Shown here piece by piece: positions 13,829 to 32,953 of a DNA stretch of 49,044 nt. Origin of the DNA: Bacteroidota bacterium (lineage in GTDB: Bacteria > Bacteroidota > Bacteroidia > Sphingobacteriales > Sphingobacteriaceae); NCBI GenBank assembly GCA_018266935.1, contig JAFDZL010000493.1, positions 1 to 49,044 on the forward strand, in the 5' to 3' direction. Under the pieces are notes generated by a model. It saw nothing but the letters and a program-made list of their open reading frames with translations. It was not told the origin of the DNA and did no database searches. Made by a program: the position numbers and the translations under genes. How positions within the stretch are numbered: position 1 is the first letter of the stretch; each line of letters opens with the position of its first letter.

Positions 13829-16800
13829 ATGATAATAGAATTAATTAGTCCCAAAAAGGCACTTAATAAAGCCTACCTTAAGGAGAAAGTAAGCCGGATT
13901 GAAATACAAAATTTTAAGCATAACCTAAAAGTTTTAATTGGGAAAATTAACGAAAAGGAATCGGAAGAGCATCTAAAGAATCTGGTATCTGACTTTTTAA
14001 AAAACACCTGGTATCGGGATACCAATGAAATAAATACGAAAGGCAGAAATGACTTAGTTATTCATACAGGCAAGTCAACAACCGATCCTGTTGGTGTATT
14101 GCTGGAAGTTAAACATCCAACCAATAAGGCTGAGATGGTTAGCACAGATCGGATTAATGTAAAGGCATTTCACGAGCTTATTCTCTATTATTTGCGGGAA
14201 CGATTTGAAAACAATAATATTCATTTAAGACACTTAATTTTTACTAATATATATGAATGGTATATCGTCGACGAAAATTGGTTTGAACGAAATATTTACC
14301 GAAATACCAAATTAAAAAAAGATTTTGAAAGCTGGAAAGTTAGTGGTAAAGACACCAGAGCATTTTATGACGATATTGCAAAAGCTCATTTGAATGAGAT
14401 TTCTGAACATTTTCAATGTGCCTATTTTGACATTAGGGATTTCAAAAACATTGTTGACGCTAATGATGAGCAGGAAGATATAAAACTGATAGCATTATAT
14501 AAGTTACTTTCTCCCGTAAACCTTCTAAAATTACCATTCGCTAACGACAGTAACTCTTTGGATAAAAGCTTTTATTCCGAATTATTGCACATTATTGGTT
14601 TAGAAGAAAAAAAGGTTCGGGGTCGAAGATTAATTCAAAGAAAGGACAAACCGTCCCACGCCTCGATTCTGGAAAACTGTATTATTCAGTTAGAGGATAG
14701 AGAGTGCATTAATAACATTGAAAGCCTCTATGAATATGGTAACAAAAAGGCGGATCAAGTGTATGCAGTTGCCTTGGAATTAACAATTACATGGATAAAT
14801 CGAATTCTTTTTTTAAAACTATTAGAGGCACAGCTTTATCAGTACCACGACAATGACCGCTCATATCGCTTTTTGAATATTGCCTCCGTTAGGGATTACA
14901 GTGAACTCAATACATTGTTTTTTCAGGTTTTGGCCCAAACGCCGAAAAAAAGACACGACCACTTAAAAGAGCGATATCGCAAAGTACCTTATCTAAATAG
15001 CTCCCTATTTGAAAGAACTGAACTGGAAAGAAAGACAATCGACATTGGGTCATTGTTGAATGACACTTATTTAGATTTAGCAACGTCGACAGTGTTGAAG
15101 GATGAGCGAGGCTTCAGGAAGAATGGAAGTGTTCTGACCCTTCAATATTTATTTGATTTTCTTGACGCTTATGATTTTAGCTCGGAGGGACCAGAGGACA
15201 TTCAGGAAGAAAACAAAAGCTTAATAAATGCTTCCGTACTTGGCCTGATTTTCGAAAAAATCAATGGTTATAAAGACGGGTCGTTTTTTACGCCCGGCAG
15301 CATAACAATGTTTATTTGTCGCGAAACGATTAGGAAAGCTGTATTGAGAAAATTCAATGAGGTTTACAACTTGGATTGTCGAGAATTTGGTGATTTAAAA
15401 AATTATATAGCTTCAAAGTATCATGCCCAAAATATTCTAGAGTTTAACCGAACCTTAAATGAGCTAAAGATTTGCGACCCGGCAGTTGGATCCGGACATT
15501 TCTTGGTTTCTGCGCTCAATGAAATTATCACAATTAAAGCTGAACTAGGGATTTTGGCCGATACAAATGGCCATCGACTGGGTGGCTATGAAATCAGGGC
15601 AGAGAATGATGAGCTAATCATCACTTATAATGACAACACTGAAATATTCCAATATAAAATTCGAAATCATTCCATAAATTCTGAAGTTCAGAGAGTACAA
15701 AAAACCATATTTCACGAAAAAGAAGCGATTATTGAACAATGTTTGTTTGGCGTCGACCTTAACCCAAATTCTGTTAAAATATGCCGGTTAAGGCTTTGGA
15801 TAGAATTGCTTAAAAATACGTATTATACAGAAGACTCAGGATTTTCAGAACTTGAAACGCTGCCAAACATCGATATCAATATTAAGTCTGGGAATTCTTT
15901 AATTAGCCGATTTCCTATCAATAATAAAGCAATAAACTCATTCGATTCCAAATATAGCATTGAGGAATACAAGCAAGCCTTTCATGACTATCACAGGGCC
16001 GAATCAAAAACAAAACGCGCTGAAATAGAAGACTTGCTAAGAAAAATAAAAAGCGATTATACTTCAGTTATCAATAGCAGAGATCCATTAATCATTCGAT
16101 TGTCTAACCTTCGGGGACGTCACGCGAATCTGTATAATAAGGTTAAGATTGGCGACTTATTTTCAAAAACCAAAAAGTCCGAGGTTCAACCAGATCTGGA
16201 TAAGTTAGAATTGAATATTAAGAAGCTTGAGACCACAATTGAGAATATACGCAAGAACCAAGTATTTGACCGAGCATTTGAATGGCGCTTGGAGTTTCCG
16301 GATTCTATGAATCACGATGGCAGCTTTCAAGGCTTCGATGTTATAATCGGCAATCCGCCATATGTATTCGGAGGCAACGAAGGTATCACAACAATTGACA
16401 AAGAGTATTTTAAGGATCACTATATTACAGGCAAAGGCAAAGTAAATCTTTTCACACTCTTTATTGAAAGAAGCTTTGAACTTTTAGTTGACGGTGGTCA
16501 ATTCGCTTTTGTTATTCCAAATACCTTTTTAAGGGTAACTTCCTACCACGACGCTCGGCGACATTTGATAGAAAACTATACAGTAGATACCATCGTCGAT
16601 CTCGGAGATTCTGTTTTTGAAGATGCGATTACTACTGCCATCATAATAGTAGCAAATAAAGCAACACCCAATGATGACCATAAGATCAATATCTCGACTC
16701 AAGACAACGAAAACTCCATCGGCCAACGCCAATTAAAAAATGCGAATTATGTTATTGCAACCAATATTAATGATCAAAAACGTATTACGTTAGATAAGAT

Positions 16801-17656
16801 AGAGTCCAATTCAATTGCCCTTGGTGAAATTTGCAAGGAATTAATATTTGGAATTGTTATTACAAAAAACAAAGACGAAGTAGTAAGTAATCAATCTTTG
16901 CCTGGATGGAAGCCATTTTTAGAGGGAAGAGATATTGGCCCTTTTTTCATAAAACCGGTTCACAATTTTATAAATTACAAACCCGAGCTTTTGCACCGGC
17001 CTCGCACGAAAGAAATTTTTGAAGTCCCTGAAAAAATATTGTTGCAGCGTATCACTGGTGGATCTCGGCCTTTGAAAGCGGCCTATGATAAAAACCAGTA
17101 TTATAATAAAGAGTCAATTAATAACTTGATTCTTCACGAATACAGTGGTTTTGACTATAAGTACATATTAGGGTTACTGAATTCAAAGTTAATTAACTGG
17201 TATTATTCAAATCAATTTACAAACGAATCCAAGCTAACAGTAAATCTTTCCAAAGAATATCTCTCCCAAATCCCAATTTACCCCGCTTCGTTTACTGAGC
17301 AAAAACCATTTGTTAAAATTGTCGACTACCTGTTATTTCTAAGCCAGCCAAATTTAAAACAGGTTGACGAGTATGTGCCAAATACTTATTTAATAAATCT
17401 TTTCTCTGAGATCCTGGACGCGATGGTCTTTGAGATTTATTTTAAGTATGATTTTGATAATGCCTCATTAAATTTCATTGGATTTGTAGAACATGATTTT
17501 TTCGACCTAAGTATCACCGACGAAAAAGAGAATATCCAAAAAATTCAGATTGTTTATCAGTTTTTACGGAACCAAGCCAATAAGATAAGGAACAACCTAA
17601 AACTAATGGACATCCGCGTTCCAGAGTTAGTAATGCCAATTAAAACTATCAGATAA
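13829..17656 (+). CDS. Type IIG-like restriction-modification protein (Eco57I-type methylase with N-terminal nuclease)
   Basis: A 1275-aa fused enzyme. An N-terminal PD-(D/E)xK nuclease-like region is suggested by Asp75 (GRNDLVIH) and Glu93-x-Lys95 (LLEVKHP). The SAM-binding motif I is DPAVGSGHF starting at Asp550. The catalytic adenine-methyltransferase motif NPPY starts at Asn842 (FDVIIGNPPYVF). A C-terminal target-recognition region contains 'GWKPFLEGRDIGPFF' and 'LLQRITGGSRP'. It should methylate adenine at a specific site and cut unmodified DNA. It is notably more A/T-rich than the mobilization genes, a sign of separate origin. The next gene encodes an AAA ATPase. A PglX-type role is an alternative, but no other BREX gene is present. 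Confidence 0.85.
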   Translation: MIIELISPKKALNKAYLKEKVSRIEIQNFKHNLKVLIGKINEKESEEHLKNLVSDFLKNTWYRDTNEINTKGRNDLVIHTGKSTTDPVGVLLEVKHPTNKAEMVSTDRINVKAFHELILYYLRERFENNNIHLRHLIFTNIYEWYIVDENWFERNIYRNTKLKKDFESWKVSGKDTRAFYDDIAKAHLNEISEHFQCAYFDIRDFKNIVDANDEQEDIKLIALYKLLSPVNLLKLPFANDSNSLDKSFYSELLHIIGLEEKKVRGRRLIQRKDKPSHASILENCIIQLEDRECINNIESLYEYGNKKADQVYAVALELTITWINRILFLKLLEAQLYQYHDNDRSYRFLNIASVRDYSELNTLFFQVLAQTPKKRHDHLKERYRKVPYLNSSLFERTELERKTIDIGSLLNDTYLDLATSTVLKDERGFRKNGSVLTLQYLFDFLDAYDFSSEGPEDIQEENKSLINASVLGLIFEKINGYKDGSFFTPGSITMFICRETIRKAVLRKFNEVYNLDCREFGDLKNYIASKYHAQNILEFNRTLNELKICDPAVGSGHFLVSALNEIITIKAELGILADTNGHRLGGYEIRAENDELIITYNDNTEIFQYKIRNHSINSEVQRVQKTIFHEKEAIIEQCLFGVDLNPNSVKICRLRLWIELLKNTYYTEDSGFSELETLPNIDINIKSGNSLISRFPINNKAINSFDSKYSIEEYKQAFHDYHRAESKTKRAEIEDLLRKIKSDYTSVINSRDPLIIRLSNLRGRHANLYNKVKIGDLFSKTKKSEVQPDLDKLELNIKKLETTIENIRKNQVFDRAFEWRLEFPDSMNHDGSFQGFDVIIGNPPYVFGGNEGITTIDKEYFKDHYITGKGKVNLFTLFIERSFELLVDGGQFAFVIPNTFLRVTSYHDARRHLIENYTVDTIVDLGDSVFEDAITTAIIIVANKATPNDDHKINISTQDNENSIGQRQLKNANYVIATNINDQKRITLDKIESNSIALGEICKELIFGIVITKNKDEVVSNQSLPGWKPFLEGRDIGPFFIKPVHNFINYKPELLHRPRTKEIFEVPEKILLQRITGGSRPLKAAYDKNQYYNKESINNLILHEYSGFDYKYILGLLNSKLINWYYSNQFTNESKLTVNLSKEYLSQIPIYPASFTEQKPFVKIVDYLLFLSQPNLKQVDEYVPNTYLINLFSEILDAMVFEIYFKYDFDNASLNFIGFVEHDFFDLSITDEKENIQKIQIVYQFLRNQANKIRNNLKLMDIRVPELVMPIKTIR

Positions 17657-17680
17657 ATGCCAATTAAAACTATCAGATAA
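17633..17680 (+). repeat. Perfect 24-bp tandem duplication at a gene junction
   Basis: Two identical 24-base units (17633-17656 and 17657-17680) follow each other without mismatch. The first encodes the last residues MPIKTIR plus the stop of the restriction protein. The second repeats an ATG, the same seven codons and a stop that overlaps the ATG of the ATPase gene (TAATG). With a single unit the two genes would overlap directly; the duplication inserts an in-frame seven-codon mini-ORF between them. Confidence 0.9.
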
Positions 17681-19515
17681 TGCACAAAGTCCATAAAGTC
17701 TGCCTTAAAAATTTTAAATATTTTTTTGGTGAAACTGCATTAGTAATTGATTCAAAAAATCTACTGATCTACGGAGAAAATGGCTCTGGAAAAAGTTCAA
17801 TCTATTGGGCATTATACACTTTCCTACATAGCGTTTTCAAGCCAGATGACCGGGATATCCAAAAATATTTTGAACATGCAAATGATCAAAGCCTTTTAAA
17901 TCGATTTGCAGCTCCAAACGAAACTGGCTCAATAATAATTGAGTTTATTGACGAAACGGCGACGGTTATTACAAAGACACTCTCCTATTTGTCGATCAAT
18001 ACAAAATCGGGAACATTAGTCAAAGAGGCCGCAGCATCAAGCGACTTTATCAATTACAGAATATTGTCTCGTCTTTATGATTTTACCAATCGTGAAAAAA
18101 TAGATCTTTTCCCTCTATTTGTAAGGGAAATCTTGATGTTTATAAACTTCTCAGTTGAGTTGGCCCCTGGCGTTACCAACGCCGCTGACTGGTGGGCGTT
18201 TCTGGAACCCGGACAGCAACCAAAAAGTAATATAAACACTCCGGAATATCAGGATTTCCAGAGCAAGATGGCGACATTCAATCAGGAGTTGAATAATTAT
18301 TTGCTTTCAATTCTTCAAACGGCAAATGAGTATCTTCAAAATGAGTTCAAGCAAGATTTGCGAATTGGATTCGCTTTTTTGCCCGGCACTTACAATCAGT
18401 TTGAAGATGGAAGTACAACAAAAAGAAATCATAAAACTATACGTCCAAAAATTCTTTTGAACGTAGAATACCAAGATCCAAGACCAGGAGGCACAAGCTT
18501 TAATTTAGGGCGACCGCAATCCTTTCTTAATGAAGCAAAGTTGACAGCTATAGCATTATCGATCAGATTTGCGATTTTAGAACAAAAAAATATTGCTAAT
18601 GCTACTAAGATCTTGGTCCTTGATGACCTGCTCATCAGTCTCGATATGAGCAATCGTGAAATCGTTCTGGAAATAATATTAAAAAGATTTACAGCCTACC
18701 AAATCATTCTTTTAACACATGACCGTTCATTCTTTGAATTGGCGAAACATAAAGCAAAAAGGGCTGGTATCGTCGAATGGCTATACTATGAGATGTACGA
18801 GTCACAAGTTAATGGAACTCCCCAACCTTTTATCAAAGCCTCAGATACATATTTAGAGAAAGCAAAGGCAAACTTCTATGAAAAGGAATATGAAATTGCC
18901 GGCAACTTTTTACGTAAACAGGCCGAAGCATTTTGCAAGTCATTTTTACCACGCAAACTTCAATTTAAAGACGATCTCAGTCCTAGGGACTTAAGTGAAA
19001 TGATTAATCAGTGTGTAAAATATGGAGGGGAATGCGGATTAACTACTGATGTATTTAAAGATTTGGATGGTCATCGTAAATTTGTTCTGAACCCAGCGAG
19101 CCATGATAGTTATGGCGTTGCGAAATTCAATCACGAAGTCGGAAATTGCATTCGCACTTTCGAAAAACTCTCTGAGTTACGATTTGATACTACCATCCCA
19201 ATTGGCGAAAAATTTGAATTCGAAATTACAGGTGACTCGGACGGTGCGTTGTATAAATTTGAGATTACGCTAGATGAACCGGCAATCTTAATCAAGGAGC
19301 CTGGAGAGGATAGCGTTTTAAGTAAGGTTAAATTTGGTCACAAGATGTATAGGAACGGCGTTCAGAAATATGACTGGACGTACACCAGAAGCACGATCGG
19401 TAGTTTCTATAAGAAATTTTATGACAAATCTGATAAAGCCAAGTCGGCAGACTATTGGGATGAAGTTGTCCAGGTTTCGACTGGACAAAAAATGCAAACC
19501 TTGCGTATTTACTAA
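17680..19515 (+). CDS. AAA-family ATPase (RecF/SMC-like) coupled to the restriction protein
   Basis: A 611-aa P-loop ATPase. Walker A is GENGSGKSS at residues 32-40, preceded by 'VCLKNFKYFFGETALVID', the usual N-terminus of RecF/SMC-like ABC ATPases. Walker B is 'ILVLDDLLISLDMSNR' near 309-324, followed by an H-loop-like 'ILLTHDRSFF'. There is no long coiled coil. A helical region follows (YLEKAKANFYEKEYEIAGNF), then a C-terminal beta-rich part. The start overlaps the stop of the second tandem unit (TAATG), so it is translated with the restriction gene. It probably senses DNA or DNA ends, or controls the nuclease, by analogy with ATPases paired with restriction enzymes. Confidence 0.8.
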   Translation: MHKVHKVCLKNFKYFFGETALVIDSKNLLIYGENGSGKSSIYWALYTFLHSVFKPDDRDIQKYFEHANDQSLLNRFAAPNETGSIIIEFIDETATVITKTLSYLSINTKSGTLVKEAAASSDFINYRILSRLYDFTNREKIDLFPLFVREILMFINFSVELAPGVTNAADWWAFLEPGQQPKSNINTPEYQDFQSKMATFNQELNNYLLSILQTANEYLQNEFKQDLRIGFAFLPGTYNQFEDGSTTKRNHKTIRPKILLNVEYQDPRPGGTSFNLGRPQSFLNEAKLTAIALSIRFAILEQKNIANATKILVLDDLLISLDMSNREIVLEIILKRFTAYQIILLTHDRSFFELAKHKAKRAGIVEWLYYEMYESQVNGTPQPFIKASDTYLEKAKANFYEKEYEIAGNFLRKQAEAFCKSFLPRKLQFKDDLSPRDLSEMINQCVKYGGECGLTTDVFKDLDGHRKFVLNPASHDSYGVAKFNHEVGNCIRTFEKLSELRFDTTIPIGEKFEFEITGDSDGALYKFEITLDEPAILIKEPGEDSVLSKVKFGHKMYRNGVQKYDWTYTRSTIGSFYKKFYDKSDKAKSADYWDEVVQVSTGQKMQTLRIY

Positions 19516-19533: not shown

Positions 19534-19845
19534 TTATCTTTCACCTGATTTACGAACAATATCAGGGACCGTAGTGACCAATGATCGAAATATCAGCGGC
19601 GCTGAAAGTCCGACGTGGAAATAAACGATTTTGTTGAGTTTTTGCGTATCGTCAAAATACACAAACCCGAGTATTGCGCTCAGGCTAAGATTAAATAAAA
19701 TAACCAAATAATACTCAACAGATCGAAAATCGGGTCGCCTGTCTGGCGGCGCTGAGAGAGCATCAATCAAATTCAAAAGTTGAAGGGCGACGCCACCGAG
19801 TAAACAAAGGTAAACAGATTGAGGAATTGCCATAAGTTTAATCAA
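19534..19845 (-). CDS. Small three-helix membrane protein ending the Argonaute operon
   Basis: A 103-aa protein with three likely membrane segments: about residues 9-29 (QSVYLCLLGGVALQLLNLID), 43-64 (VEYYLVILFNLSLSAILGFV) and 74-94 (VYFHVGLSAPLIFRSLVTTV). There is no signal-peptidase site and no known family. Its start overlaps the end of the 90-aa gene by 8 bases. It is the last gene of the operon and faces the ATPase stop with only 18 bases between them. Small membrane proteins at the end of defence operons often act as effectors or inhibitors, but here that is a guess. Confidence 0.7.
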   Translation of the reverse strand: MIKLMAIPQSVYLCLLGGVALQLLNLIDALSAPPDRRPDFRSVEYYLVILFNLSLSAILGFVYFDDTQKLNKIVYFHVGLSAPLIFRSLVTTVPDIVRKSGER

Positions 19846-20110
19846 TTCGATTTTTAAATGCCCCCAGAACTTTATCCATTAACGGAGCCTTGTGACGAAA
19901 AAGAGTCCGCGATGTGTACAATGGCTCGCCATGTTTCATTCTGTATGATGAGCGAACGAAATCTCCTGAAGTCATGATTATCTCTGCAACGGTTGTAGCA
20001 TCAATTTTTGTGGCTTTGGATATTTCCTCGAGAGTCTTCCAGTAGTCATCATCCTGCGAGTCAAAAAAGTTCAGGATCAAATTCTTATCACTTTCTAGTT
20101 TTGTTTCCAT
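19838..20110 (-). CDS. Small winged-helix-like protein of the Argonaute operon (90 aa)
   Basis: No family is recognised with certainty. The order of elements suggests a winged helix: helix 'DKNLILNFFDSQ', helix-turn-helix 'WKTLEEISKATKIDATTVAEII', then wing strands 'VRSSYRMKHGEPLYTSRTLF' and a C-terminal helix. The protein could bind DNA or another operon product. It lies 11 bases after the metallopeptidase gene and overlaps the membrane-protein gene by 8 bases, so the three are co-translated. Confidence 0.7.
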   Translation of the reverse strand: METKLESDKNLILNFFDSQDDDYWKTLEEISKATKIDATTVAEIIMTSGDFVRSSYRMKHGEPLYTSRTLFRHKAPLMDKVLGAFKNRID

Positions 20111-20121
20111 TTGGTTGACGT

Positions 20122-21255
20122 TTACAAGATTTGTTTAAAAGCAGCTACGGCTGTCCTTTCCCATTCGTAAAATTCAATCGGATTGGTCCAGAATTGTTGC
20201 CACGAATCGTTTAATAAGCGATTAACCTTATCACTTGGTGCTGATGTTGCTAGCTGACAGCCGATTTGCTTTAAGCCTGTAAAGCAAAATTCTGCTGCGC
20301 TTTTTAGCAAGGATTCCGGGTAAGCAATTGAATATTCTTCAGTTCGTTTTTGACCAATAATCTCAATAAATTCATCCCATTTGGCTTTAATATCCACCGC
20401 ATCTTCCTCAAAGCCAAGTTGTTCCAGGGCTAAAATACAGCACCGCATACGCGCATCCGCGGCCGGATGTGTTGACATTTCATAAGCTGGTGTTTTAAAT
20501 ACATCCCAGGCCATTTTCGTACACATATGCAAATTCGACCAAAGATAGGCAGGCCCCAATGTGTAGGTGGCAAACAAATCACAGAAAAACTCAACCGACC
20601 ATTTTTCCACCCAGGAGTCTTTATAGATGTAAATTGGATCGTAACCGCCTGAATCCAATTTATTCATCTCCCTTCTTTTGATTTCCTCTTCGAAATGTTT
20701 CCTGACAGCCAGGTTGAAATAACCAAGATTATTTTGAAAGGGTTCAACTTTTGGATTATCCCGTTCTATCAATGGATGACCAAGTTCGTGGTAAAGGTCC
20801 GGGATATGCAAGACAAATTCGGATTCTAGTAGCGGTATGCAAATCAATCCATAGTCGGGGTAAATATGATAGTAATTTTGAGAAAGACACGATGCAACCG
20901 GTGGCGGCAAAGGATAATTAACCTCGTTGCAAATTTCTTGTACTAACTTATTGACAAAGTCATCGTCGTCCGATTTTCTGTTCAAAGCGGCAATCACGAT
21001 ATTTTCAATCTTGGATAGAAAAAACGAAAGCTGCTTAAATCTCGTAAATTTTGACTTAAGGTTTTTAGGATCGCAATAGTCTGAATCAGCTAAAAGATTG
21101 TCAAGATCATCAATAATTCGCCCTATCTCATCGTTGGCAAAATTAGCTAACGACGCAAAATGTGTCCCCAAAGTCCTTGAGCCAGGAATTTTAGTCATTA
21201 AAGCCCTTCCCTTGCCTATTGCTTCCCTAATTGCGCCGTTGATGTAGTTGACCAT
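20122..21255 (-). CDS. Zinc metallopeptidase-like protein (HELGH) in the Argonaute operon
   Basis: A 377-aa protein with a zincin signature. HELGH is at residues 156-160, with glutamate/aspartate candidates for the third zinc ligand in EFFCD at 222-226 and the block 'STHPAADAR' at 261-269. The H-E-x-x-H ... E-x-x-x-D ... H-P-x-x-x-R order recalls M48-type gluzincins. The N-terminal 110 residues are helical. There is no signal peptide or membrane anchor, so it would act in the cytoplasm. Its start directly abuts the stop of the 121-aa gene. It could process a partner protein on activation, but the substrate is unknown and I do not know a named family for it. Confidence 0.75.
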   Translation of the reverse strand: MVNYINGAIREAIGKGRALMTKIPGSRTLGTHFASLANFANDEIGRIIDDLDNLLADSDYCDPKNLKSKFTRFKQLSFFLSKIENIVIAALNRKSDDDDFVNKLVQEICNEVNYPLPPPVASCLSQNYYHIYPDYGLICIPLLESEFVLHIPDLYHELGHPLIERDNPKVEPFQNNLGYFNLAVRKHFEEEIKRREMNKLDSGGYDPIYIYKDSWVEKWSVEFFCDLFATYTLGPAYLWSNLHMCTKMAWDVFKTPAYEMSTHPAADARMRCCILALEQLGFEEDAVDIKAKWDEFIEIIGQKRTEEYSIAYPESLLKSAAEFCFTGLKQIGCQLATSAPSDKVNRLLNDSWQQFWTNPIEFYEWERTAVAAFKQIL

Positions 21256-21621
21256 TTATTCGCCAATTATCTTTGATAATGCTTGACTATTTTCAGTATC
21301 CAGTATGTCAGCAAGGAACTCTATTTTTGGCAAATAGCCACCGACATTACCGCTTTCGATATCGTTTATGACCAACTGCAGATAATTTCCAAAATCTTTG
21401 GTAGTCGGACGAAGTTCTCGTTCCACAATATTTGATAATAACTGAAACTGTGGTTGTGCGTTATTCTCGTCTTTTAGCTTGGCTATGAATTCAATTAATT
21501 GTCCTTTTTGGCCGTCTTCGATGTCTTCATTTATTCTTACTCTGACAACAAAATCATTTAAAAGATCAAGGTATTTACCTGTGATCCTAAAGGTATTGGT
21601 ATTTAATCCGATGCTACTCAT
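21256..21621 (-). CDS. Hypothetical helical protein downstream of Argonaute (121 aa)
   Basis: I do not recognise a family. The protein appears alpha-helical and acidic, without Cys/His clusters, signal peptide or membrane segments ('NDFVVRVRINEDIEDGQKGQ', 'NYLQLVINDIESGNVGGYLP', 'IEFLADILDTENSQALSKII'). It sits 10 bases after the Argonaute stop and its own stop touches the start of the metallopeptidase gene. That tight packing implies co-expression. It may link Argonaute and the peptidase or be the peptidase's substrate or adaptor, which is inference only. Confidence 0.7.
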   Translation of the reverse strand: MSSIGLNTNTFRITGKYLDLLNDFVVRVRINEDIEDGQKGQLIEFIAKLKDENNAQPQFQLLSNIVERELRPTTKDFGNYLQLVINDIESGNVGGYLPKIEFLADILDTENSQALSKIIGE

Positions 21622-21631
21622 TTTATTGTCT

Positions 21632-24061
21632 TTAAAAGTTAACTGATTTTAAGATCTCCAATGATTCAAAGTCAAAATCACTTCCAAGGATATTTATTCG
21701 ACGATCTGTTATTCTGATTGTTATCGGAAACCTTGAACAATCATCAGGCTTGCTATATGGGAGGCAAGACAGGTAATATAAGTCCTTTAATATTTTTTCA
21801 AACTCCATATCACCAGTATTGTATTTTACATATAGCGGAATTGAAGTCCCTTGATGCTTAAATTCACGACCCGTCGTACACAAAAACGCTTCTCGTGAAT
21901 TAATCATTACATAAGAGCCAATCTCAGGATTCAACACTTTTCCATTATCGTTACGCACAGATCTCATATCAAAATTTTCAGTAACCTCAAAAAGCCGAAA
22001 CGGAATAACAGAGTGTTTGGGAATTTCTACAATATTTACCGAGCAAGTCATCGAAACAATCCCCTTCTCTTTCAAAGTATTTATCGCCTGCATGATGCCC
22101 TCTTTTTCTCTTTGAAAAAGGCGGCCATCGCGATGAATGACGACTGTTTCAATTGCATAGCCCAGGTGCCTCTTTAATAGAATGATGTTGGGGACGAGCA
22201 TCTTTACCATTTGAGCAACAGTAAGCCGTTCCTTGTTGCTTGACTTGTCGAGCCTTGTTAGAATGTTTTTTGAATACTTATCGACGAATGTGACGCCTGC
22301 AATTTGCTTTTTCACATCGATTCCAATTGTTAAATCGGCATTCAAAGGTGTATTTAGTACAAATGGCCAACGTTCATTATTTAATAGCACCTGGTTAATT
22401 GCGACTCCTAAAACATATCTACGATATTTCCCTTCACTCTCTCTTCTGAGTTGATATGTACCACTACCATTCATTGACCGATAGACAAAACACTCCTCTA
22501 ATGTCTCGGTGTGCATGATGCTTGCAGTCATATTGTGCTCACTTAAGCACTCAGACACCACCAAGGCAGCCAACTGGTCATGCTGACGTTTTATCCTTTC
22601 TACATTAGACGGTAACATGACAACTGCATAACCACCTTTTTTATCGTTAACCGTTTCCTTAATTTGTTTGAGAATCTCAAATCCTATATCTACGGAATCC
22701 TTTTTGTTTCTGTTATCATAAACGACAACTTGAGGGTCCCAACCAACTTCACTTGGATGCATTTTATTAACTTGTTCAACCAGATGTGACAAAAAGTGTT
22801 CTCGATTCCCATACATATGAAAAATTGTCTCAGGAACAACGAAATACTGTTTTTGAAAGGTTGCAACCGTGTAACAACCTTTATCCATCAATAATGCTTT
22901 TCGCGCTTTCCCCAGGTCTTTCATGGTTGTAAAGGTCGCATCTCCAAGATTGGGATTTACAGTCAATAAAGCATCTCCACCAAAAAGTGTATCGGGCACC
23001 TCAAATTTCTTTTTTTCAATGATTACTGGAGTGTCATCAAATTCAAGCTTGATATTTCCAAATCTTATATTCTTAAAGAAGCGGCTAAATGCTGAACGAA
23101 TAAATAGTCTCCTATAAAACGGATCCAAAATTGATTGTCTATGAATCTTACTTACTTTTCGATCTTCGGTATCAAAAACTTGGTAACAGAGGCCAGCTAT
23201 CGCGTGACGCTCCTCATTATCATTTGTCTTATAAGTTAAAGCCGAAGCATTATCAGGTAATTTTGCTACCTCTGGCGGCATAGCTCTTCCAAATTTCGAT
23301 CTAACATCCTCTAGTAGTGTTACAATCTTGTTATCTCCACGTCTTGGGAATTTAAGCTGTGTCGCATTGAGATCATTAAATCTTACCGACCGAAGCTCAT
23401 ACTTTTGATTTCCATAACGATAAATATAATGAGGTTTTGATCCTCCCAATTTTTCAAACTCTCTGCGTGTAACGTTGACATTAAGCGGTTCTTGAGAAAC
23501 ATATTTCTTAGTAACGTCAATCGAGACGCCCAGCCCGCCGTTTGGTATTTCTACAACACGTGCAAAGAAACCATTGTAGATACTTATCCCATTGACAACT
23601 TTATATGCCTCTTGATTGAAAAATGCGTCTCCAGATGTTGGTTGCCATAAAGTCGGTAGGTCATTTAAATTTGACTGTATATCAAATTGAAGAAATCGCA
23701 AAACGATTTCTTTAACTGAATGATACTTTGCAAAATCAATAGGAAAAGACTCATTTACTTGTTTGAAGTAAACGATTTCACTCCGTTTTACAAGGAATTC
23801 AGAAGGAATACTGGCAATCACTTGTTTTTCGTCTCTCACAACCAAAAACGGCTTATTTTGCCGATGAATTACGGTAACCGGATGCTTCAATTTGTATGAG
23901 AGCGTCTCAATAATAAATTGAATGTTGTTATCGTAGTCGTCATCTACATCGCGCAAACCGATTATTTCAAACAGCACATAGTTTGCTGACAACTGATGCA
24001 AATTTTTTATAGGAAAAACATCGGTCTCGTATTCTCCAATATTAGTTCGACATTGTTGCAT
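21632..24061 (-). CDS. ago: Prokaryotic Argonaute (long form, PIWI acidic residues present)
   Basis: An 809-aa Argonaute. The N-terminal half would hold the N, L1, PAZ and L2 parts, though PAZ is not clear by eye. The MID region is around 475-525. The PIWI domain spans about 570-809, with Asp582 in 'LTIGIDVKKQIAGVTFVDK', a possible glutamate finger at Glu611, Asp645 in 'VVIHRDGRLFQ' and Asp786 in 'FPITIRITDR'. That fits a DEDD catalytic tetrad, so target cleavage is predicted. The usual Y/K...Q guide 5'-phosphate motif in MID is not obvious. The length fits long pAgos; Sphingobacteriaceae Argonautes of this size have been studied. Its start overlaps the nuclease gene by 20 bases. Whether guides and targets are DNA or RNA cannot be told. 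Confidence 0.9.
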   Translation of the reverse strand: MQQCRTNIGEYETDVFPIKNLHQLSANYVLFEIIGLRDVDDDYDNNIQFIIETLSYKLKHPVTVIHRQNKPFLVVRDEKQVIASIPSEFLVKRSEIVYFKQVNESFPIDFAKYHSVKEIVLRFLQFDIQSNLNDLPTLWQPTSGDAFFNQEAYKVVNGISIYNGFFARVVEIPNGGLGVSIDVTKKYVSQEPLNVNVTRREFEKLGGSKPHYIYRYGNQKYELRSVRFNDLNATQLKFPRRGDNKIVTLLEDVRSKFGRAMPPEVAKLPDNASALTYKTNDNEERHAIAGLCYQVFDTEDRKVSKIHRQSILDPFYRRLFIRSAFSRFFKNIRFGNIKLEFDDTPVIIEKKKFEVPDTLFGGDALLTVNPNLGDATFTTMKDLGKARKALLMDKGCYTVATFQKQYFVVPETIFHMYGNREHFLSHLVEQVNKMHPSEVGWDPQVVVYDNRNKKDSVDIGFEILKQIKETVNDKKGGYAVVMLPSNVERIKRQHDQLAALVVSECLSEHNMTASIMHTETLEECFVYRSMNGSGTYQLRRESEGKYRRYVLGVAINQVLLNNERWPFVLNTPLNADLTIGIDVKKQIAGVTFVDKYSKNILTRLDKSSNKERLTVAQMVKMLVPNIILLKRHLGYAIETVVIHRDGRLFQREKEGIMQAINTLKEKGIVSMTCSVNIVEIPKHSVIPFRLFEVTENFDMRSVRNDNGKVLNPEIGSYVMINSREAFLCTTGREFKHQGTSIPLYVKYNTGDMEFEKILKDLYYLSCLPYSKPDDCSRFPITIRITDRRINILGSDFDFESLEILKSVNF

Positions 24062-25004
24062 ATTCTTTCGTTTTACAAATCGTTTTAAATTGGCAATTGT
24101 TGCAATTCTCTATATAATTAGTTGTTTCAAAATTCTCTGGGTCAGCTTCGCCATATTTTTTGTGACACCCTTTCATATACATTTCAATGATCCCTTTGGA
24201 CATCTTGTCATTTAGTTCTTCAAGACTGTCTTTCGTAACCTCATAATCTCTCCTGATGCGGTCTGGATGTAGCAGCTGATATTCAGTTAATTTATAATCG
24301 AAAATCTGATGGCTTCCTAAATTCATAGGAAAATCAGCATGCGGTTTCGTCATGGCAACTTTATATAGGGCTACAGCATAAAACATCAATTGCTCGTCGT
24401 AAGTATTCAGTCCGTAGGTATGTACTTTCCAATCAATAATATGAGGAGCCCTGTCATCAAAAAATACAATCAAGTCCGGTTTTGAAGAAACAGGCAAACC
24501 GCTGAACGTATAGTGCAATGGTCGCTGGCTAGCTAAGAATCTTGCCGATTGTAAATACTTTATGAACTCCGCATCATCCAACAGATTGTTCAGCGCAGCA
24601 TGAATGTCAGTGCGAGCCGTATTTATCATTTCATCAGTGTAATCAAGACCAAACTCATAGTTGACCAGCGCCGCAAAATCTTTATCCTTTGTATATTTCC
24701 GACCAGGTTCCCTATATTTCTGAAAAGCAGCATATTCCAACTGGGAGTCAAACATTTTGTCTGCTTCATTTACCAAATAAGTCCTGTCAATGGGATATTT
24801 TTTGTTTATTGAATTTATCAATAGCCTACTAACTACATCATCGACAATGTTTCCACGCCAGGCTTCCAACGTGTTTAGTTTGGCCAGAATTGTTATCTCT
24901 TTCCGGAACTCGTCGTTCTTAACGCGACCATCGGCGACAATATTCTTAAGATACCATTGTAATTGGCATCTTTTGAAAAGCTTATATCCTGTCGGAGTAA
25001 ACAT
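24042..25004 (-). CDS. Cas4/AddB-like PD-(D/E)xK nuclease with Fe-S cysteines
   Basis: A 320-aa nuclease. One N-terminal cysteine (Cys13 in FKRCQLQWYL) and three C-terminal ones (Cys301, Cys304 and Cys310, spacing C-x2-C-x5-C) match the 4Fe-4S cage of Cas4 and AddB nucleases. The catalytic core is Asp177 (SSKPDLIVFFD), Asp191-x-Lys193 (IIDWKVHTYG) and the QxxxY motif Gln205/Tyr209. Cas4-like enzymes cut or resect DNA ends. Next to Argonaute, a role in guide generation or target degradation is plausible. Its stop lies inside the start of Argonaute, so the two are translationally coupled. CRISPR genes are absent, so this is not a CRISPR adaptation Cas4. Confidence 0.85.
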   Translation of the reverse strand: MFTPTGYKLFKRCQLQWYLKNIVADGRVKNDEFRKEITILAKLNTLEAWRGNIVDDVVSRLLINSINKKYPIDRTYLVNEADKMFDSQLEYAAFQKYREPGRKYTKDKDFAALVNYEFGLDYTDEMINTARTDIHAALNNLLDDAEFIKYLQSARFLASQRPLHYTFSGLPVSSKPDLIVFFDDRAPHIIDWKVHTYGLNTYDEQLMFYAVALYKVAMTKPHADFPMNLGSHQIFDYKLTEYQLLHPDRIRRDYEVTKDSLEELNDKMSKGIIEMYMKGCHKKYGEADPENFETTNYIENCNNCQFKTICKTKEYATMSN

Positions 25005-25009
25005 TGATA

Positions 25010-25345
25010 CTATTTTTTTCTTGACCTGATAAACTTCAAATAATTGAGTAACTCAACCTCCTCGTCTTCTGATATTTCGCCGATTCGATAAGCGACGGAA
25101 TTGCTGTGCCTAACACGCTCTGCTTTTTTGGGTGTAGGATAACCCACTTTTTCCATTAACAGCTCATACGCTACTCCATAGAATTCTGCTAATTTATGCA
25201 AGGTCAACGGCGACGGTTGTTTTATCTTTCCCGATTCCAATTGGCTTAAATATGCATTGGAAACGTCGGTTGCTTTTTCAACTTCTCTAAGCGTCAATTG
25301 CTTAGATTCTCTCAGGGCTCTAAAATATTCACCGTAGTTCTCCAT
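25010..25345 (-). CDS. XRE-family regulator, first gene of the Argonaute operon
   Basis: A 111-aa DNA-binding protein. Residues 5-62 form a classical Cro/C1 helix-turn-helix (YFRALRESKQLTLREVEKA, VSNAYLSQLESGK, LTLHKLAEFYGV). A short basic linker and an acidic helical C-terminus follow (ISEDEEVELLNYLKFIRSRK). It is separated by 5 bases from the nuclease gene, so it is the first cistron. Paired operator-like repeats overlap its own promoter at 25366-25417, which makes it the probable autoregulator of the whole operon. Confidence 0.85.
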   Translation of the reverse strand: MENYGEYFRALRESKQLTLREVEKATDVSNAYLSQLESGKIKQPSPLTLHKLAEFYGVAYELLMEKVGYPTPKKAERVRHSNSVAYRIGEISEDEEVELLNYLKFIRSRKK

Positions 25346-25457: not shown

Positions 25458-27563
25458 CTATTTTCTTAAATGGACACTTAACGCGAGTAATTGGCCCATT
25501 GAAAGCCTGCTACCTAAGATCGGTCGTAAGCGCGCCACAGTCGGTTGATTATCAAAATCCGGTAATAGATTTAAAGTATCGTTCAGTAATTGTTGCGGTA
25601 TTATATCAGTTATCTTGACCTCTCCTGTAGGTATAAAAAATGCAAGGTGGGACTCAATTGCGGAAATTCCTAGTTTTCGTTTGTCCGCTATTTCTGCAAG
25701 GGAATTACCTGCTAAAAACAGCTTCAATGTCTGCTTTTCTGTTGTTTCATTTGTTTCGGCAACCTTGCCATAGGACTTGGCTTCGGAAGTAACTACAGGT
25801 ATAAGTGAATTTTCTCCTAAATTTGGGAAATAGGGGATTCCATTTTCAACTTTCGGAACTAGTTCGGTCGCCATCTTAATTGCCCGCTCCTTTTCCTGGA
25901 ACGATTGAACAATATTATTAACTAGGTTTACTTCCGATCTGAACTTATAGTCAGCTTTATTTCTTTTAATATAATCCTTTAAAGGCGATATGCAGTTTGA
26001 ATTAATCTCATTGGAAAAGTACTCAGCTGCCCTAAAGCACCGCTCTTTTAGCAAGAGCCAGTCTATATTGCCTGGAATATAAAGTAATCCCCGAATTTCT
26101 TTTGCAAATGCTGAAGCATGTTTTTCTAGCTTAAGTGACGTTTCTTTTATACTTGCAAAATTCGATCTATCGAGCGTCGGTTGCTCAAGCTTCACTTTTA
26201 TCGAGCTCCAGTCGAAAATTTTATTTAGCAAATTCATTAGGTATTCTTTTTTCCCCTCCACCAATGTCAATAACAATTCCGGGATATTTCCAACTTTGCT
26301 AAAAACAGTTTCGGTGATTTTGGGCCTAATTATAGCTGAAGCGGGTATTTTAGACTTCAGGAACAAGCCCTCCGGTGTCTTAATTCGACTCAATGCAACA
26401 TAAACCTGGCCAGGAGCAAACGCCCCCGCAACATCTATTACTGCCGTCTCAAAAGTCAAACCCTGACTCTTGTGAACGGTTATTGACCACGCCAATTTTA
26501 ATGGAAATTGTTGGAAAGTTCCTAAAACCTCTTCTTTGACAGTATTGGTTTCAGAGCTGAATGTATAAGTAATATTCGACCAAATTTCTTTTTGAATTGT
26601 AGTTTTTGATGTGTCGTCAAAAGTGACTTCGATTGTTTCTTCGTTGAACGCTGTGATTGTACCAATTTTCCCATTATAGTATTGTGGATTCACCGATTTG
26701 TCGTTTTTTAGAACCATCACGCGACAACCTTGCTTTAATTGAAGATTCAATTCAACCGGGAATTGCTCTTCAGAAAATACACCATTTAGCACGGCATTAA
26801 AGATATGCCCCTCCCCAGGCAAGCCGCGCAATTGACTCACATTTATTTGAGCGGCATTTTGATTGTGAGTTGTTAGTATAATGGAATTTTTATCTGCCCA
26901 TTCAGGTGTATAAAATGTATTAAGTTGCGACAATTCGAAATCTGAAATATTTCCTGTCCTTACTGCATTGAGCAAGCTGATAAAATCTGCATCTGATTGC
27001 CGATGTACCTTAGTTAGTTCTAGCATTAGTACGTCTAGGTCGCCAATTATCCTTGAAGAAGTGAAATAAAGTGTCGGATAAAGTCCACTCAATGTTTCCC
27101 TGTCTTCGGTGGTTTCAATAGGTGGCAACTGAAAAAGGTCGCCGATAAATACAATTTGTAAACCTCCCAATGGCCGTCGATTCTGACGCACTTCTTTTAG
27201 CAAATAGTCCATTGCGTCTAATACATCTGCCCGTAACATGGAGACTTCGTCGACAACTAGCAAATCTAGTTCACGCAAAAGCAAACGAGCTTGACTTGAA
27301 ATTCGAATGCCTTTAACCGTCTCTTCATCAAGCGGTCGCGGAGGCAGTGCAAACAAAGAGTGGATTGTGGTTCCACCAACATTTACTGCAGCTACACCAG
27401 TCGGCGCAGCAATTGCCATTTTTTTCTGGGTACAGCCTTTCAAGAATTTCAAAAATGTGCTTTTGCCAGTACCCGCTCCGCCGGTTAAAAACACGTTCCG
27501 CGCAGTATGATTTATGAAATCCAGTGCCATCGAGGCAATGTCGCTAACGCTATCATTGTTCAT
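25458..27563 (-). CDS. Pif1/RecD-like helicase with helix-turn-helix C-terminus
   Basis: A helicase of about 701 aa. Walker A is 'FLTGGAGTGKSTFLKF', followed by 'IAAPTGVAAVNVGGTTIHSLF', Walker B 'LDLLVVDEVSMLRADVL', and the late motifs 'LAWSITVHKSQGLTFETAVID' and 'GQVYVALSRIKTPEGLFLKS', all typical of superfamily 1B Pif1-type enzymes. The C-terminal 80 residues include an HTH-like part (LFLAGNSLAEIADKRKLGIS). I prefer the start MNNDSVSDIA at 27563, because family members begin just before the P-loop; an ATG at 27605 adds 14 residues. It lies 112 bases upstream of the XRE gene on the same strand. It may be part of the Argonaute system or a separate gene. Confidence 0.8.
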   Translation of the reverse strand: MNNDSVSDIASMALDFINHTARNVFLTGGAGTGKSTFLKFLKGCTQKKMAIAAPTGVAAVNVGGTTIHSLFALPPRPLDEETVKGIRISSQARLLLRELDLLVVDEVSMLRADVLDAMDYLLKEVRQNRRPLGGLQIVFIGDLFQLPPIETTEDRETLSGLYPTLYFTSSRIIGDLDVLMLELTKVHRQSDADFISLLNAVRTGNISDFELSQLNTFYTPEWADKNSIILTTHNQNAAQINVSQLRGLPGEGHIFNAVLNGVFSEEQFPVELNLQLKQGCRVMVLKNDKSVNPQYYNGKIGTITAFNEETIEVTFDDTSKTTIQKEIWSNITYTFSSETNTVKEEVLGTFQQFPLKLAWSITVHKSQGLTFETAVIDVAGAFAPGQVYVALSRIKTPEGLFLKSKIPASAIIRPKITETVFSKVGNIPELLLTLVEGKKEYLMNLLNKIFDWSSIKVKLEQPTLDRSNFASIKETSLKLEKHASAFAKEIRGLLYIPGNIDWLLLKERCFRAAEYFSNEINSNCISPLKDYIKRNKADYKFRSEVNLVNNIVQSFQEKERAIKMATELVPKVENGIPYFPNLGENSLIPVVTSEAKSYGKVAETNETTEKQTLKLFLAGNSLAEIADKRKLGISAIESHLAFFIPTGEVKITDIIPQQLLNDTLNLLPDFDNQPTVARLRPILGSRLSMGQLLALSVHLRK

Positions 27564-27992
27564 CTTTTGCAAATATAATTTGTCGGGACTATTAATAATT
27601 TTCATAGTAGGGGCGAATTAAAAAAAGCGAGGAAATTTTTAAGAAAATAAATTGAGCACAACAGATCACAACGCATAATGCGTTAAAATTTAAGAAAGGC
27701 CCCAAAACATTGATTCTATTAGATTTAAGCTCGAATTTCGAATTTCGATTTTCAAAATGCGTCATGACCTTTATGGGCAAAATTGACCAAATCGAAATTC
27801 ACAGACTATTGATCCTACTATTACTGACCTACTTAAATCTTTGGGAATTTGAGAACACATAACTGATGTGGTCGAAGGTGGGCGAAGAAACCTTTAAAAA
27901 CCGCGAAAAAAAATATGGGTTCACTAAGTAATAGGAACTCTCAAGAATTGTGAATTTTTAATAAGGTTAAGAGCTTGAATATCCTCCAAAAT

Positions 27993-28176: not shown

Positions 28177-28956
28177 TTAATATGTCCATAAGCAGGACAC
28201 CAGTGCATGCCGTCCTACCTGGTAACATTGCTCCCAAAGTTTCCAGTCCGACTTATATTTAATCTGAAAATCTTCGGGAAACCATTCAATAGCGTCAACT
28301 TTCTCCGGTTGAGCTTCGAGTGTGCCTTTCGCAAAATAGTCACCCGCTACCGTCCAAGCTGGAACTTTTGAATTGAGCGGCAGATAGGTGAACGGGAAGT
28401 CGTAGGAGTGGAATTTCCACTTCACCATATTATCTTCCATAAAAATGATCATTGCAGGAAAATCCCCTATCGATACATACTTGATAAATGTAGCCAATAA
28501 AGAGGTATGAAAGTACCCGCTTACATCTTCGATCAGTTTAATGCTTAATTTCTTTCCAGCAACCATTCCTTTAAATAGCGATTCCGGCATCAGCAGCTCG
28601 GACGCGAAGCTGTTGGCCTGCTGTTCTTGAGCACCTTTCTTATACCATTCTGCAAGTGTGAGGTCGGTATCGGAGAACAAAGCCGATGTATCCTTATGGA
28701 GCAGGAAGTGCCCGATCTCATGCCCTAATACAAAATTTCTTTTCCCGAGCTGCGTGATCGTATCGCTTACGGAAACAATGGCCGAGTCCCCTTTGATCAA
28801 AATTCTTCCCTCAGACCCTTCTATGGGCACTTGTTTGACCAGTATTCCTAACGCCCCGGCGATTTCGTCCAGGGTAAGATCTGAAGGCTGGGTCCATCCC
28901 AAAAAGGAATGTACCTCCCGTGCGGCGTTTACCGGGTTCCTACTTTGAATCCTCAT
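28177..28956 (-). CDS. ImmA/IrrE-family metallopeptidase
   Basis: A 259-aa protein with the ImmA/IrrE (COG2856) zinc site: HEIGH at residues 79-83 in 'RNFVLGHEIGHFLLH', and Glu111 in 'EQQANSFASELLMP' as third ligand. The C-terminal 120 residues are an additional domain. Such peptidases cleave helix-turn-helix repressors in response to a signal. CapP, a member that controls CBASS operons, is a known example. Here it is encoded divergently from a CBASS operon, and its start overlaps the 134-aa gene by 17 bases. The expected partner repressor is not a standard XRE protein; the sigma-like protein at 29346 is the candidate. Confidence 0.85.
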   Translation of the reverse strand: MRIQSRNPVNAAREVHSFLGWTQPSDLTLDEIAGALGILVKQVPIEGSEGRILIKGDSAIVSVSDTITQLGKRNFVLGHEIGHFLLHKDTSALFSDTDLTLAEWYKKGAQEQQANSFASELLMPESLFKGMVAGKKLSIKLIEDVSGYFHTSLLATFIKYVSIGDFPAMIIFMEDNMVKWKFHSYDFPFTYLPLNSKVPAWTVAGDYFAKGTLEAQPEKVDAIEWFPEDFQIKYKSDWKLWEQCYQVGRHALVSCLWTY

Positions 28957-29344
28957 CCAACTTGTTCTTCAATATTTCAATCAGATGAAGTAATTCCTGG
29001 TCTTCCCCAATAGCCGCTTCATCCTTTTCCGTCAATTCATCAAACTTCCGGAATAACGGCACAAGTTGTGCCTGCTCTTGCGGGGAGATCAGTCTCTTTA
29101 ATTCCTCGAGTCCCTTTTCTTTTAAAACTTTTATTTGATCTACCGCTTTTTGAAAACGCTCCTGGTTTGCCTGTGCCTTCAGCTTGGCATTGAGTTGTTT
29201 GATCTTAACGAGGTGCGCGTCCAGTTGCGCATCGGGTTTTTGCTCAAGCTCCTCCAGTATCTCTTTGTCCGGCCGGTAATAATTAATCTCCATCATCAAG
29301 CCATAAAGATTACTTAAAACCTGCTTTGAATTTAAAGTTGCCAT
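28940..29344 (-). CDS. Hypothetical coiled-coil protein (134 aa)
   Basis: An almost entirely helical, highly charged protein with long heptad-like stretches (EILEELEQKPDAQLDAHLVK, LKAQANQERFQKAVDQIKVL). It has no membrane segment and no Cys pairs. It overlaps the ImmA/IrrE gene start and lies one base after the sigma-like gene stop, so the three genes form one coupled operon. It is probably an adaptor or oligomerisation partner of the other two. No family is recognised. Confidence 0.7.
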   Translation of the reverse strand: MATLNSKQVLSNLYGLMMEINYYRPDKEILEELEQKPDAQLDAHLVKIKQLNAKLKAQANQERFQKAVDQIKVLKEKGLEELKRLISPQEQAQLVPLFRKFDELTEKDEAAIGEDQELLHLIEILKNKLDEDSK

Positions 29345-29345
29345 A

Positions 29346-29942
29346 TTACCTGAATGATGATTGTTGTTGATTTTTAATTCGTCTCATTAATTTTTCCCGC
29401 AGCTTGTCGAACTGCCTCACATTGATACCCAATAAATCGGCGATACCAGCTCTTTTTTTGCCGTCCTTCAATCCCTCGATCATAAACTCCAGGTCTTCAT
29501 CGCCTGCGACGGCGGTTTCAATCACAGCCAGCTTCCGCTCTATCTCTTCACGCTCCCGCTCGTCTGTCGGCGGGGCAGCAAGGTCGTAAAACTCTTCTTC
29601 CACATCTTTATATACGATTTTCAGCGCTTCGCTCTTGGCAGAGGTTGTCTGTTCCACCTGCTTACTGATATAGCTGTCGGCGATTCTGATCATCTGCTGG
29701 CTCAGCGTAAAATCATCTTTCCACTCCCATATGCCCGCCAGTATTTTTTCATAGGCAATACCAAGATAATGATCAACCGGTTCGGCCCCAAGATTGGAGG
29801 CTGAATGCGCGCCGGACAAGGTACGCTGCTTCAGTCGCCACTTAATATGTTCCTTGCATTTTGCCATGGCCACCTTCCAGTCTGCATCTGTCAGTCTTTC
29901 AACCTTGCGCTGGTTTGCGTGATAGTACTTACCTGTTTCCAT
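29346..29942 (-). CDS. Sigma-70-like / helix-turn-helix regulator
   Basis: A 198-aa protein with the layout of a small sigma-like factor. The N-terminal helical region resembles region 2 ('DHYLGIAYEKILAGIWEWKD', 'QQMIRIADSYISKQVEQ'). A charged linker follows, and the C-terminal helix-turn-helix is 'RAGIADLLGINVRQFDKLRE' with a basic end. It could direct RNA polymerase or act as a repressor. It starts the three-gene operon divergent from CBASS, and its ATG is 10 bases from the palindrome at 29953-29979, where it may bind. The assignment rests on secondary-structure pattern, not on clear sigma signature motifs. Confidence 0.6.
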   Translation of the reverse strand: METGKYYHANQRKVERLTDADWKVAMAKCKEHIKWRLKQRTLSGAHSASNLGAEPVDHYLGIAYEKILAGIWEWKDDFTLSQQMIRIADSYISKQVEQTTSAKSEALKIVYKDVEEEFYDLAAPPTDEREREEIERKLAVIETAVAGDEDLEFMIEGLKDGKKRAGIADLLGINVRQFDKLREKLMRRIKNQQQSSFR

Positions 29943-29952
29943 GATTATAATA

Positions 29953-29979
29953 ACCGGTAAAAAATTTTTTTACACCGGT
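29953..29979. promoter_or_regulatory. Palindrome in the divergent CBASS control region
   Basis: ACCGGT at 29953-29958 and again at 29974-29979 (itself palindromic) flanks an A6/T7 core, giving a long imperfect inverted repeat of 27 bases. It lies in the 125-bp gap between the divergent sigma-like operon and the CBASS operon, 10 bases from the sigma-like ATG. This is a good candidate operator for both promoters. It could form a hairpin in RNA, but its position favours a protein-binding site. Confidence 0.55.
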
Positions 29980-30067
29980 GGGGGAATTTTTAAAAGGTTC
30001 GGTTATATAACTGTTGGAGCGGCACTTATTGCTACTCAGATCAAAAATAATATAAAATAATAATATC

Positions 30068-30340
30068 ATGGCTATAATAATTACCTACGACATTCTATCG
30101 AAACATGTGGAATTCAAAAAAGAAATGTTTCAGTTGGGCTACAAGGACCAGATTCCGGGAGAGAACTGCAAAATCATCTATTTCCCAAACACCACTTTAT
30201 ACCACGCAACCAGAGAAGCAGAAACTGCAAGAGATGAGGCTAAAATTGTTTGCAAGAAGCTCAACATTCAATTAGAACGCTGCGTTGCGACGATATGGAA
30301 GGATTGGGCTGCCGTTTGCGGTGAACCATTTAAGCAATAA
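30068..30340 (+). CDS. Small ferredoxin-fold-like protein opening the CBASS operon (90 aa)
   Basis: The predicted order is strand (MAIIITYDIL), helix (HVEFKKEMFQLGY), strand (CKIIYFPNTTLYH), helix (REAETARDEAKIVCKKL) and strand (LERCVATIWKDW). This resembles the beta-alpha-beta-beta-alpha-beta fold of Cas2/VapD-type small proteins, including an early aspartate (Asp8) at the end of strand 1 as in Cas2. It is one base upstream of the phospholipase gene, so it is clearly part of the operon. It could be a nuclease, an inhibitor of the effector or an inert subunit. No CBASS role for such a protein is known to me. Confidence 0.7.
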   Translation: MAIIITYDILSKHVEFKKEMFQLGYKDQIPGENCKIIYFPNTTLYHATREAETARDEAKIVCKKLNIQLERCVATIWKDWAAVCGEPFKQ

Positions 30341-30341
30341 G

Positions 30342-31364: not shown

Positions 31365-31365
31365 T

Positions 31366-32316: not shown

Positions 32317-32953
32317 TTTAGCCGTATTCAGGCAGGAAGCTGCAATTTGGTGCGCACAAAACCCGGGCTTTGTGTGCAGCGATAATCAGCAAGGGGTGCC
32401 TGAATTGACGGGAAAGCTGCAATTGTCGGATGGTCAGGGTGAGTGGGTAGACACTTATGAGGTCAGAATCGTTTGCACGCCCGACTATCCGTTAAGTTTC
32501 CCGTTGGTATATGAAACAGGTGGCAGAATACCCATGAACATCGAATGGCATGTTTACCCGGACGGACACGCCTGTATTTGCGCTATTCCGGAGGAAATGA
32601 TTGTTTGCAGTAGAGGTATAACCATGCAAACTTTTATTAATGATTGGATGAGCCCCTACTTTTTTAATCAAAAACATCGGGAAATGCATGGTTTCTTTTT
32701 GAAAGAACGTCCACATGGCCCTGCCGGAAACATCCAATTCTTCCACGAGATATTTAAAACGGATGACCTTCGGTATATCGCTGAGATGCTATTTTATATA
32801 CGTTCAAAACAGGAACCCAACCGTGTTCAGAACTGTTTTTGTGGAAGCGGTGAAAAATATCGGCGATGTCATCGCGACGCCTTCCGTTTGTTCAGGGCAC
32901 TACCCGTAGATAAACTAGATCAATGTATCCGGTTCGTGCAATCCTGGGTATAA
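32309..32953 (+). CDS. E2-like protein with C-terminal SEC-C zinc motif (CBASS type II-short)
   Basis: A 214-aa protein. Residues 1-135 look like a UBC/E2 fold with the block 'YPDGHACICAIPEE', where Cys89 or Cys91 is the likely thioester cysteine. The C-terminal part carries a full SEC-C motif, CFCGSGEKYRRCH (Cys176, Cys178, Cys187, His188), a zinc-binding module. Minimal type II CBASS systems carry an E2 alone, without E1 or JAB genes, and use it to modify or prime the CD-NTase. This operon has that shape. It overlaps the CD-NTase gene by 8 bases. The SEC-C tail could recruit nucleic acid or partner proteins. Confidence 0.75.
   Translation: MNNLAVFRQEAAIWCAQNPGFVCSDNQQGVPELTGKLQLSDGQGEWVDTYEVRIVCTPDYPLSFPLVYETGGRIPMNIEWHVYPDGHACICAIPEEMIVCSRGITMQTFINDWMSPYFFNQKHREMHGFFLKERPHGPAGNIQFFHEIFKTDDLRYIAEMLFYIRSKQEPNRVQNCFCGSGEKYRRCHRDAFRLFRALPVDKLDQCIRFVQSWV

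Follow-up and report, generated by a model that had tools for sequence, protein, structure and literature searches.

The window analysed here, a stretch of 49,044 nucleotides, carries on its minus strand an operon in which the gene for a prokaryotic Argonaute (Ago) is followed by those for a small protein (S) and a putative metallopeptidase (MP). From the regulator at the head of the operon to two accessory genes at its other end, the features are:

25010..25345, minus strand: XRE-type helix-turn-helix regulator, 111 aa, the operon's first gene (HTH_3, E 6.4e-13; PADLOC capH, E 1e-10)
24042..25004, minus strand: Cas4-like PD-(D/E)XK nuclease (NUC), 320 aa (PF12705, E 4.1e-11; PADLOC Aga_Cas4-like_Nuc, 408 bits)
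21632..24061, minus strand: D-R type prokaryotic Argonaute, 809 aa (PADLOC pAgo class II, 1039.8 bits)
21256..21621, minus strand: small partner S, 121 aa, no known family; directly upstream of MP in 19/19 contiguous Ago loci
20122..21255, minus strand: putative metallopeptidase MP, 377 aa, ATG start; motifs invariant in homologues
19838..20110, minus strand: accessory 90-aa gene, non-core, no family; present only here and in locus L002
19534..19845, minus strand: accessory 103-aa membrane protein, non-core, with a hydrophobic segment (Kyte-Doolittle 2.03); present only here and in L002

The Argonaute label of the preliminary description is borne out by the pAgo class II match and by the Cas4-like, Argonaute-associated nuclease upstream. 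The catalytic tetrad (D582, E611, D645, D786) is intact, K584, two residues after D582, is the lysine diagnostic of the PliAgo group, and a profile of 22 Argonautes matches PDB Argonautes (7r8f-k, 8xih/9wmd) at E 1e-167 or lower. An assignment to the long-B Argonautes, which have an inactivated PIWI tetrad, was rejected. D-R Argonautes use a DNA guide against an RNA target, a specificity demonstrated for a relative, RslAgo; they form two groups (PliAgo/RslAgo and PnyAgo/HpeAgo), with an HTH regulator or a sigma70 factor and, in both, a Cas4-like nuclease upstream (Lisitskaya et al. 2022, PMC9360449). The window operon was placed in the first, HTH-regulator group, and RslAgo itself (WP_013921749.1) is encoded in a Runella locus of our set (L010). 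The published D-R operons have the DEDD tetrad clade, the upstream Cas4-like nuclease and the HTH or sigma70 regulators in common with the MP loci. Since that paper names no protease or partner protein in its text and figure legend, and the texts of the two large pAgo surveys searched mention neither a protease nor a peptidase, the S-MP pair is, as far as searched, an unrecognised part of the published D-R operon. D-R Argonautes have so far been studied as isolated RNA-cutting tools; that their operons universally conserve a protease with its partner would imply a proteolytic arm of the natural D-R system.

There are 0 bases between the MP and S genes and 11 between MP and the 90-aa gene, just as had been described. 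Of the three neighbours whose products had been suggested for cleavage tests, the 121-aa gene is a conserved partner; the 90-aa and the membrane gene were rejected as parts of the system, being found here and in the nearest relative, Spirosoma (L002), alone. The 90-aa protein, previously called winged-helix-like, gave no significant match to support that name (best DnaD_N, E 0.16). The XRE regulator matches the capH profile over residues 5-107, a weak pointer since generic HTH models match it too. Promoter and terminator sites were no commoner in the operon than in shuffles. Upstream of the regulator lies a gene for a PIF1-like helicase of ~700 aa (25458-27605), seen in 5/19 Ago loci (here, L002, L033, L034 and L020); beyond the accessory genes, a Type IIG restriction-methylase and then a RecF/SMC-like ATPase (13829-19515) possibly form one defence unit.

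MP as a putative gluzincin

Translation of the open reading frame confirmed HELGH (156-160), EFFCD (222-226) and HPAADAR (263-269) at the positions first reported for the 377-aa protein. Of 20,000 shuffles of MP's own composition, 1.2% contained HExxH and 0 contained all three motifs in order. In the wider MP family, 31/31 complete members carry HExxH, Exx[AC]D and HPxxxxR in this order (a 32nd protein is cut by its locus end), which argues that MP catalysis is under selection; loss of the motif in homologues, named beforehand as the observation that would overturn the claim, was thus looked for and not seen in any complete member. The columns invariant in a 24-row alignment (P141, H156, E157, H160, E222, D226, G234, H263, P264, R269 and W352) are what one would expect if the protein is a functional gluzincin. 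MP has no hydrophobic stretch on the Kyte-Doolittle scale (best 19-residue mean 1.26; family maximum 1.44), in agreement with the proposed lack of a membrane segment, and its N-terminal region, about residues 1-114, is predicted to be helical. Relatives occur in Spirosoma, on six plasmids, in 8/395 genomes of the phylum and elsewhere in the order; no close relative of the window MP was found in IMG/VR or the phage records.

M48 enzymes usually carry a membrane or signal segment. With this family (PF01435) MP shares the order HExxH, ExxxD, HPxxxxR, but it falls below the curated cut-off, is without a membrane or signal segment and has an N-terminal helical region of its own. Neither MP nor S has a significant match in Pfam, NCBIfam or PADLOC; the window MP is unmatched by the M48 profile, and the best family member (L022) reaches E 0.011 across the motif region, scoring 16.0 bits where the cut-off is 20.3. 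Compared by hhalign with M48 proteins of related genomes, the MP branch associated with dCTP deaminase (see below) aligned at all three motifs with a probability of 58.7%, and the Ago branch at the last two with 53%, weak values both; unrelated profiles gave <1%, and M78 gave 54-70% with an alignment confined to the HExxH region. No match to PF06114 (M78) or to the capP profile was found. Given the weak hhalign probabilities and scores below every curated cut-off, MP is probably best described as M48-like in motif order and not as a member of M48. The cytoplasmic metallopeptidase with M48-like motifs that was first proposed is supported, with the motif order kept in 31/31 homologues.

Structural comparison supports no particular fold. 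Two AlphaFold2 models, built from 2 and 4 sequences, had a mean pLDDT of 57-58 with confident N-terminal helices alone, and Foldseek with these poor models returned no PDB match at E <= 0.001. Searching PDB sequences with the MP profile brought up chance helical matches only, and in the VIA-align rows the match to MP was limited to the N-terminal helical bundle, residues 1-114.

S and MP as core components of D-R Argonaute operons

Profile searches recovered NUC, Ago, S and MP in the same order and on one strand in 19/19 contiguous Ago loci, which span Bacteroidota, Alphaproteobacteria and Cyanobacteria and in which the S-MP gap ranges from -4 to +9 bases. The distance matrices of the four proteins correlate at 0.91-0.96 (MP-Ago 0.96, MP-S 0.94, MP-NUC 0.92), with 0/5000 permutations as high; nuclease, Argonaute, S and MP have co-evolved. 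Among 395 genomes of the phylum, all strong class II Argonaute matches (7/7) have MP, the eighth MP genome being L021, described below, and three weak Ago matches (E about 1e-4, short proteins) are without it. S and MP are likewise present on each of the nine plasmid records (9/9) matched by the window Argonaute query. A metallopeptidase within an Argonaute operon, the central claim of the preliminary description, is upheld by this conserved order, co-evolution and all-or-none co-occurrence. Nearly all bacterial Ago operons start with an XRE regulator or with a sigma70 factor and its partner; none was seen for L011. Downstream of MP, on the opposite strand, an AAA ATPase and a gene of ~280 aa were noted in the sigma-type loci L013, L014, L017 and L018.

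The pair outside Argonaute operons

The MP tree splits, with full support, into the Ago branch and one other. Members of this other branch sit between a protein of ~100-130 aa and a dCTP deaminase (PF22769) in 9/9 loci read:

S-MP-dCTP deaminase trio loci: L039, L040, L041, L042, L043, L044, L048, L102 and L014:15852-16873

The hosts of this trio are Bacteroidota, Rhizobiales and plasmids of about 90 kb in E. coli and Salmonella; it is present in 8/5426 complete E. coli genomes, always on plasmids, which makes the module accessible to experiments in a common laboratory species with no Argonaute involved. The trio has no PADLOC match, and we consider it a candidate defence operon. One relative of its E. 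coli MP is found in IMG/VR and none in the cultured-phage records. No regulator stands consistently beside the trio, a sigma-like gene near it in L041 being too weak to use. On the Emticicia plasmid pEMTOL01 (L014), an Ago operon and a trio lie about 8 kb apart.

In L021 (6577-9834) the sigma factor, its partner of ~200 aa, S and MP are kept, and Argonaute and nuclease are absent; their place is taken by a 136-aa protein, GIY-YIG-like by eye and without a Pfam match. The L021 MP nests in the sigma group of the tree, and the locus is possibly an in-place swap of the nuclease module. A further arrangement is found on four haloarchaeal plasmids (L045, L046, L015 and L047, the last a near copy of L045), where S and MP are convergent with an Argonaute. 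Catalytic residues are lost in 3/3 aligned haloarchaeal Ago rows (G-hydrophobic-S, HRNG). TFIIB-family and MarR-type genes lie near the haloarchaeal pair in L045.

The S-MP pair is thus a portable module, found with dCTP deaminase, in L021 and beside haloarchaeal Argonautes. No homology could be detected among the small proteins that accompany MP in the Ago, archaeal and dCTP branches, so the inhibitory role proposed for S is deduced from gene position. Operons of multiubiquitin, ThiF (E1-like) and DUF6527 were observed near both Ago and dCTP versions (L010, L013, L021, L041, L043 and L048; by eye in L021 and L041).

A candidate proteolytic switch and its rivals

The reading that we favour, at a probability of roughly 40%, is that S-MP is a portable proteolytic switch controlling differing defence enzymes. 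MP would be an active, soluble zinc metallopeptidase, with gluzincin-type motifs in M48-like order, forming an obligate pair with the S encoded upstream of it. In the resting cell it would be kept inactive, probably by S, and an infection-linked signal would activate it. Activated MP would then cleave a co-encoded control protein, either S itself or the operon regulator, candidate substrates of the latter kind being the CapH-like XRE repressor in the window and, in the other group, the sigma factor with its ~190-aa partner. Cleavage would raise or release the adjacent harmful enzyme, namely the guide-making nuclease and RNA-cutting Argonaute in the D-R operons and a dCTP-depleting enzyme in the trio. 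Such a scheme would follow the logic of CBASS regulation, in which CapP cleaves CapH, or of the CRISPR-linked Lon proteases that cleave an anti-sigma factor.

Several features bear on this switch. In the trio, the deaminase is a full toxic enzyme in its own right and needs a trigger, which makes S-MP more naturally a control element than a second effector. L021, which has kept sigma factor, partner, S and MP while losing Argonaute and nuclease, also speaks for the switch. A regulator at the head of nearly all bacterial Ago operons, an XRE protein resembling CapH and a CapP-like peptidase elsewhere in the window make regulator cleavage by MP plausible by analogy; since the trio is without a consistent regulator, such cleavage would not be the universal reaction. 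As with CapP and CapH, an XRE regulator and a zinc peptidase are found at one immune operon, but MP is not an M78 enzyme, is larger, is paired with a small partner and is encoded at the operon's other end. That MP is not M78 like CapP counts against the switch, as do the haloarchaeal pair, which is convergent with Argonaute and not in its operon, the absence of detectable homology among the small proteins, and the low quality of the structure models.

The main rival lies close to the idea of the preliminary description, and we regard it as rather unlikely. A DNA-guided Argonaute, with guides made by the Cas4-like nuclease, would find invader RNA and thereby free MP from S, and MP would cleave host or invader proteins, leading to dormancy or death. 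MP is indeed the last gene of the operon and tightly coupled to Ago, and the haloarchaeal S and MP are retained beside Argonautes of which the three aligned are without catalytic residues. Other inactive Argonautes do the sensing and leave the action to a separate effector, as in the long-B systems BPAN, BPAS and BPAM, in which Argonaute is likewise co-encoded with effector candidates (PMC10620215). The long-B Argonautes, however, are catalytically inactive and have nucleases, Sir2 or membrane proteins as effectors, and the paper names no peptidase (PMC10620215). An earlier link between metallopeptidase and PIWI was reported as pPIWI-RE fusions with a zincin, which are rare, involve a different PIWI family and were suspected by their authors to be an annotation artefact (PMC3702460). 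Against a gated effector, the slicer tetrad is intact in the bacterial members, so their Argonaute already has an output, and S-MP also serves operons that have no Argonaute. An Argonaute-only relay is therefore not what the pair provides. It is possible that MP passes on target recognition by Argonaute; the order could also be the reverse, with the protease upstream and the enzyme downstream. A combined form, in which invader RNA recognised by the D-R Argonaute gates MP via S and the module has also been coupled to further immune enzymes, the dCTP deaminase among them, seems to us doubtful. If true, guide-directed proteolysis would be a portable immune switch not described before.

Guided RNA recognition is coupled to proteases in CRISPR systems, where Craspase is caspase-like and CalpL, a Lon protease, acts on a sigma/anti-sigma pair. 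Their folds are unrelated to that of MP, no CRISPR or cyclic nucleotide is known here, and no cas effector was found among the window genes scanned against Pfam, NCBIfam and PADLOC.

Alternatively, MP could serve maturation or turnover, trimming or clearing Ago, the nuclease or S, either to allow guide loading or to keep self-damage low, with no signalling involved. The strict co-evolution of MP with Ago and NUC is consistent with such a role, and how the DNA guides required by the D-R class are made is unexplained (PMC9360449). RslAgo, however, was active in vitro when purified after expression without MP (PMC9360449), and the dCTP-deaminase trio is left unexplained, which together make this role improbable. 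More improbable still is a zinc-binding scaffold, with MP structural or binding nucleic acids and not proteolytic. A scaffold would accord with the finding that MP reaches the curated cut-off of no peptidase family and with the low-confidence fold models; against it, the HExxH glutamate, which is dispensable for mere zinc binding, and the third-ligand glutamate are both invariant across Bacteroidota, Proteobacteria, Cyanobacteria and haloarchaea. That MP is a chance neighbour in a defence island, other defence genes being present in the window, is refuted by the constant order and strand (19/19) and the 7/7 genome and 9/9 plasmid counts, along with the co-evolution, and retains next to no probability.

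Apart from the Ago operon, the window contains a CBASS locus (28177-32953, 7-12 kb from the operon) with its own CapP-like M78 peptidase (PADLOC capP, E 1.4e-58). The sigma factor and partner beside it have no detectable homology with those of the other Ago group. The capP-like gene is accompanied by one for a 134-aa protein and by an ORF that looks sigma-factor-like by eye; the genes for a patatin phospholipase and a DncV-like cyclase, together with one more ORF, are divergent from these.
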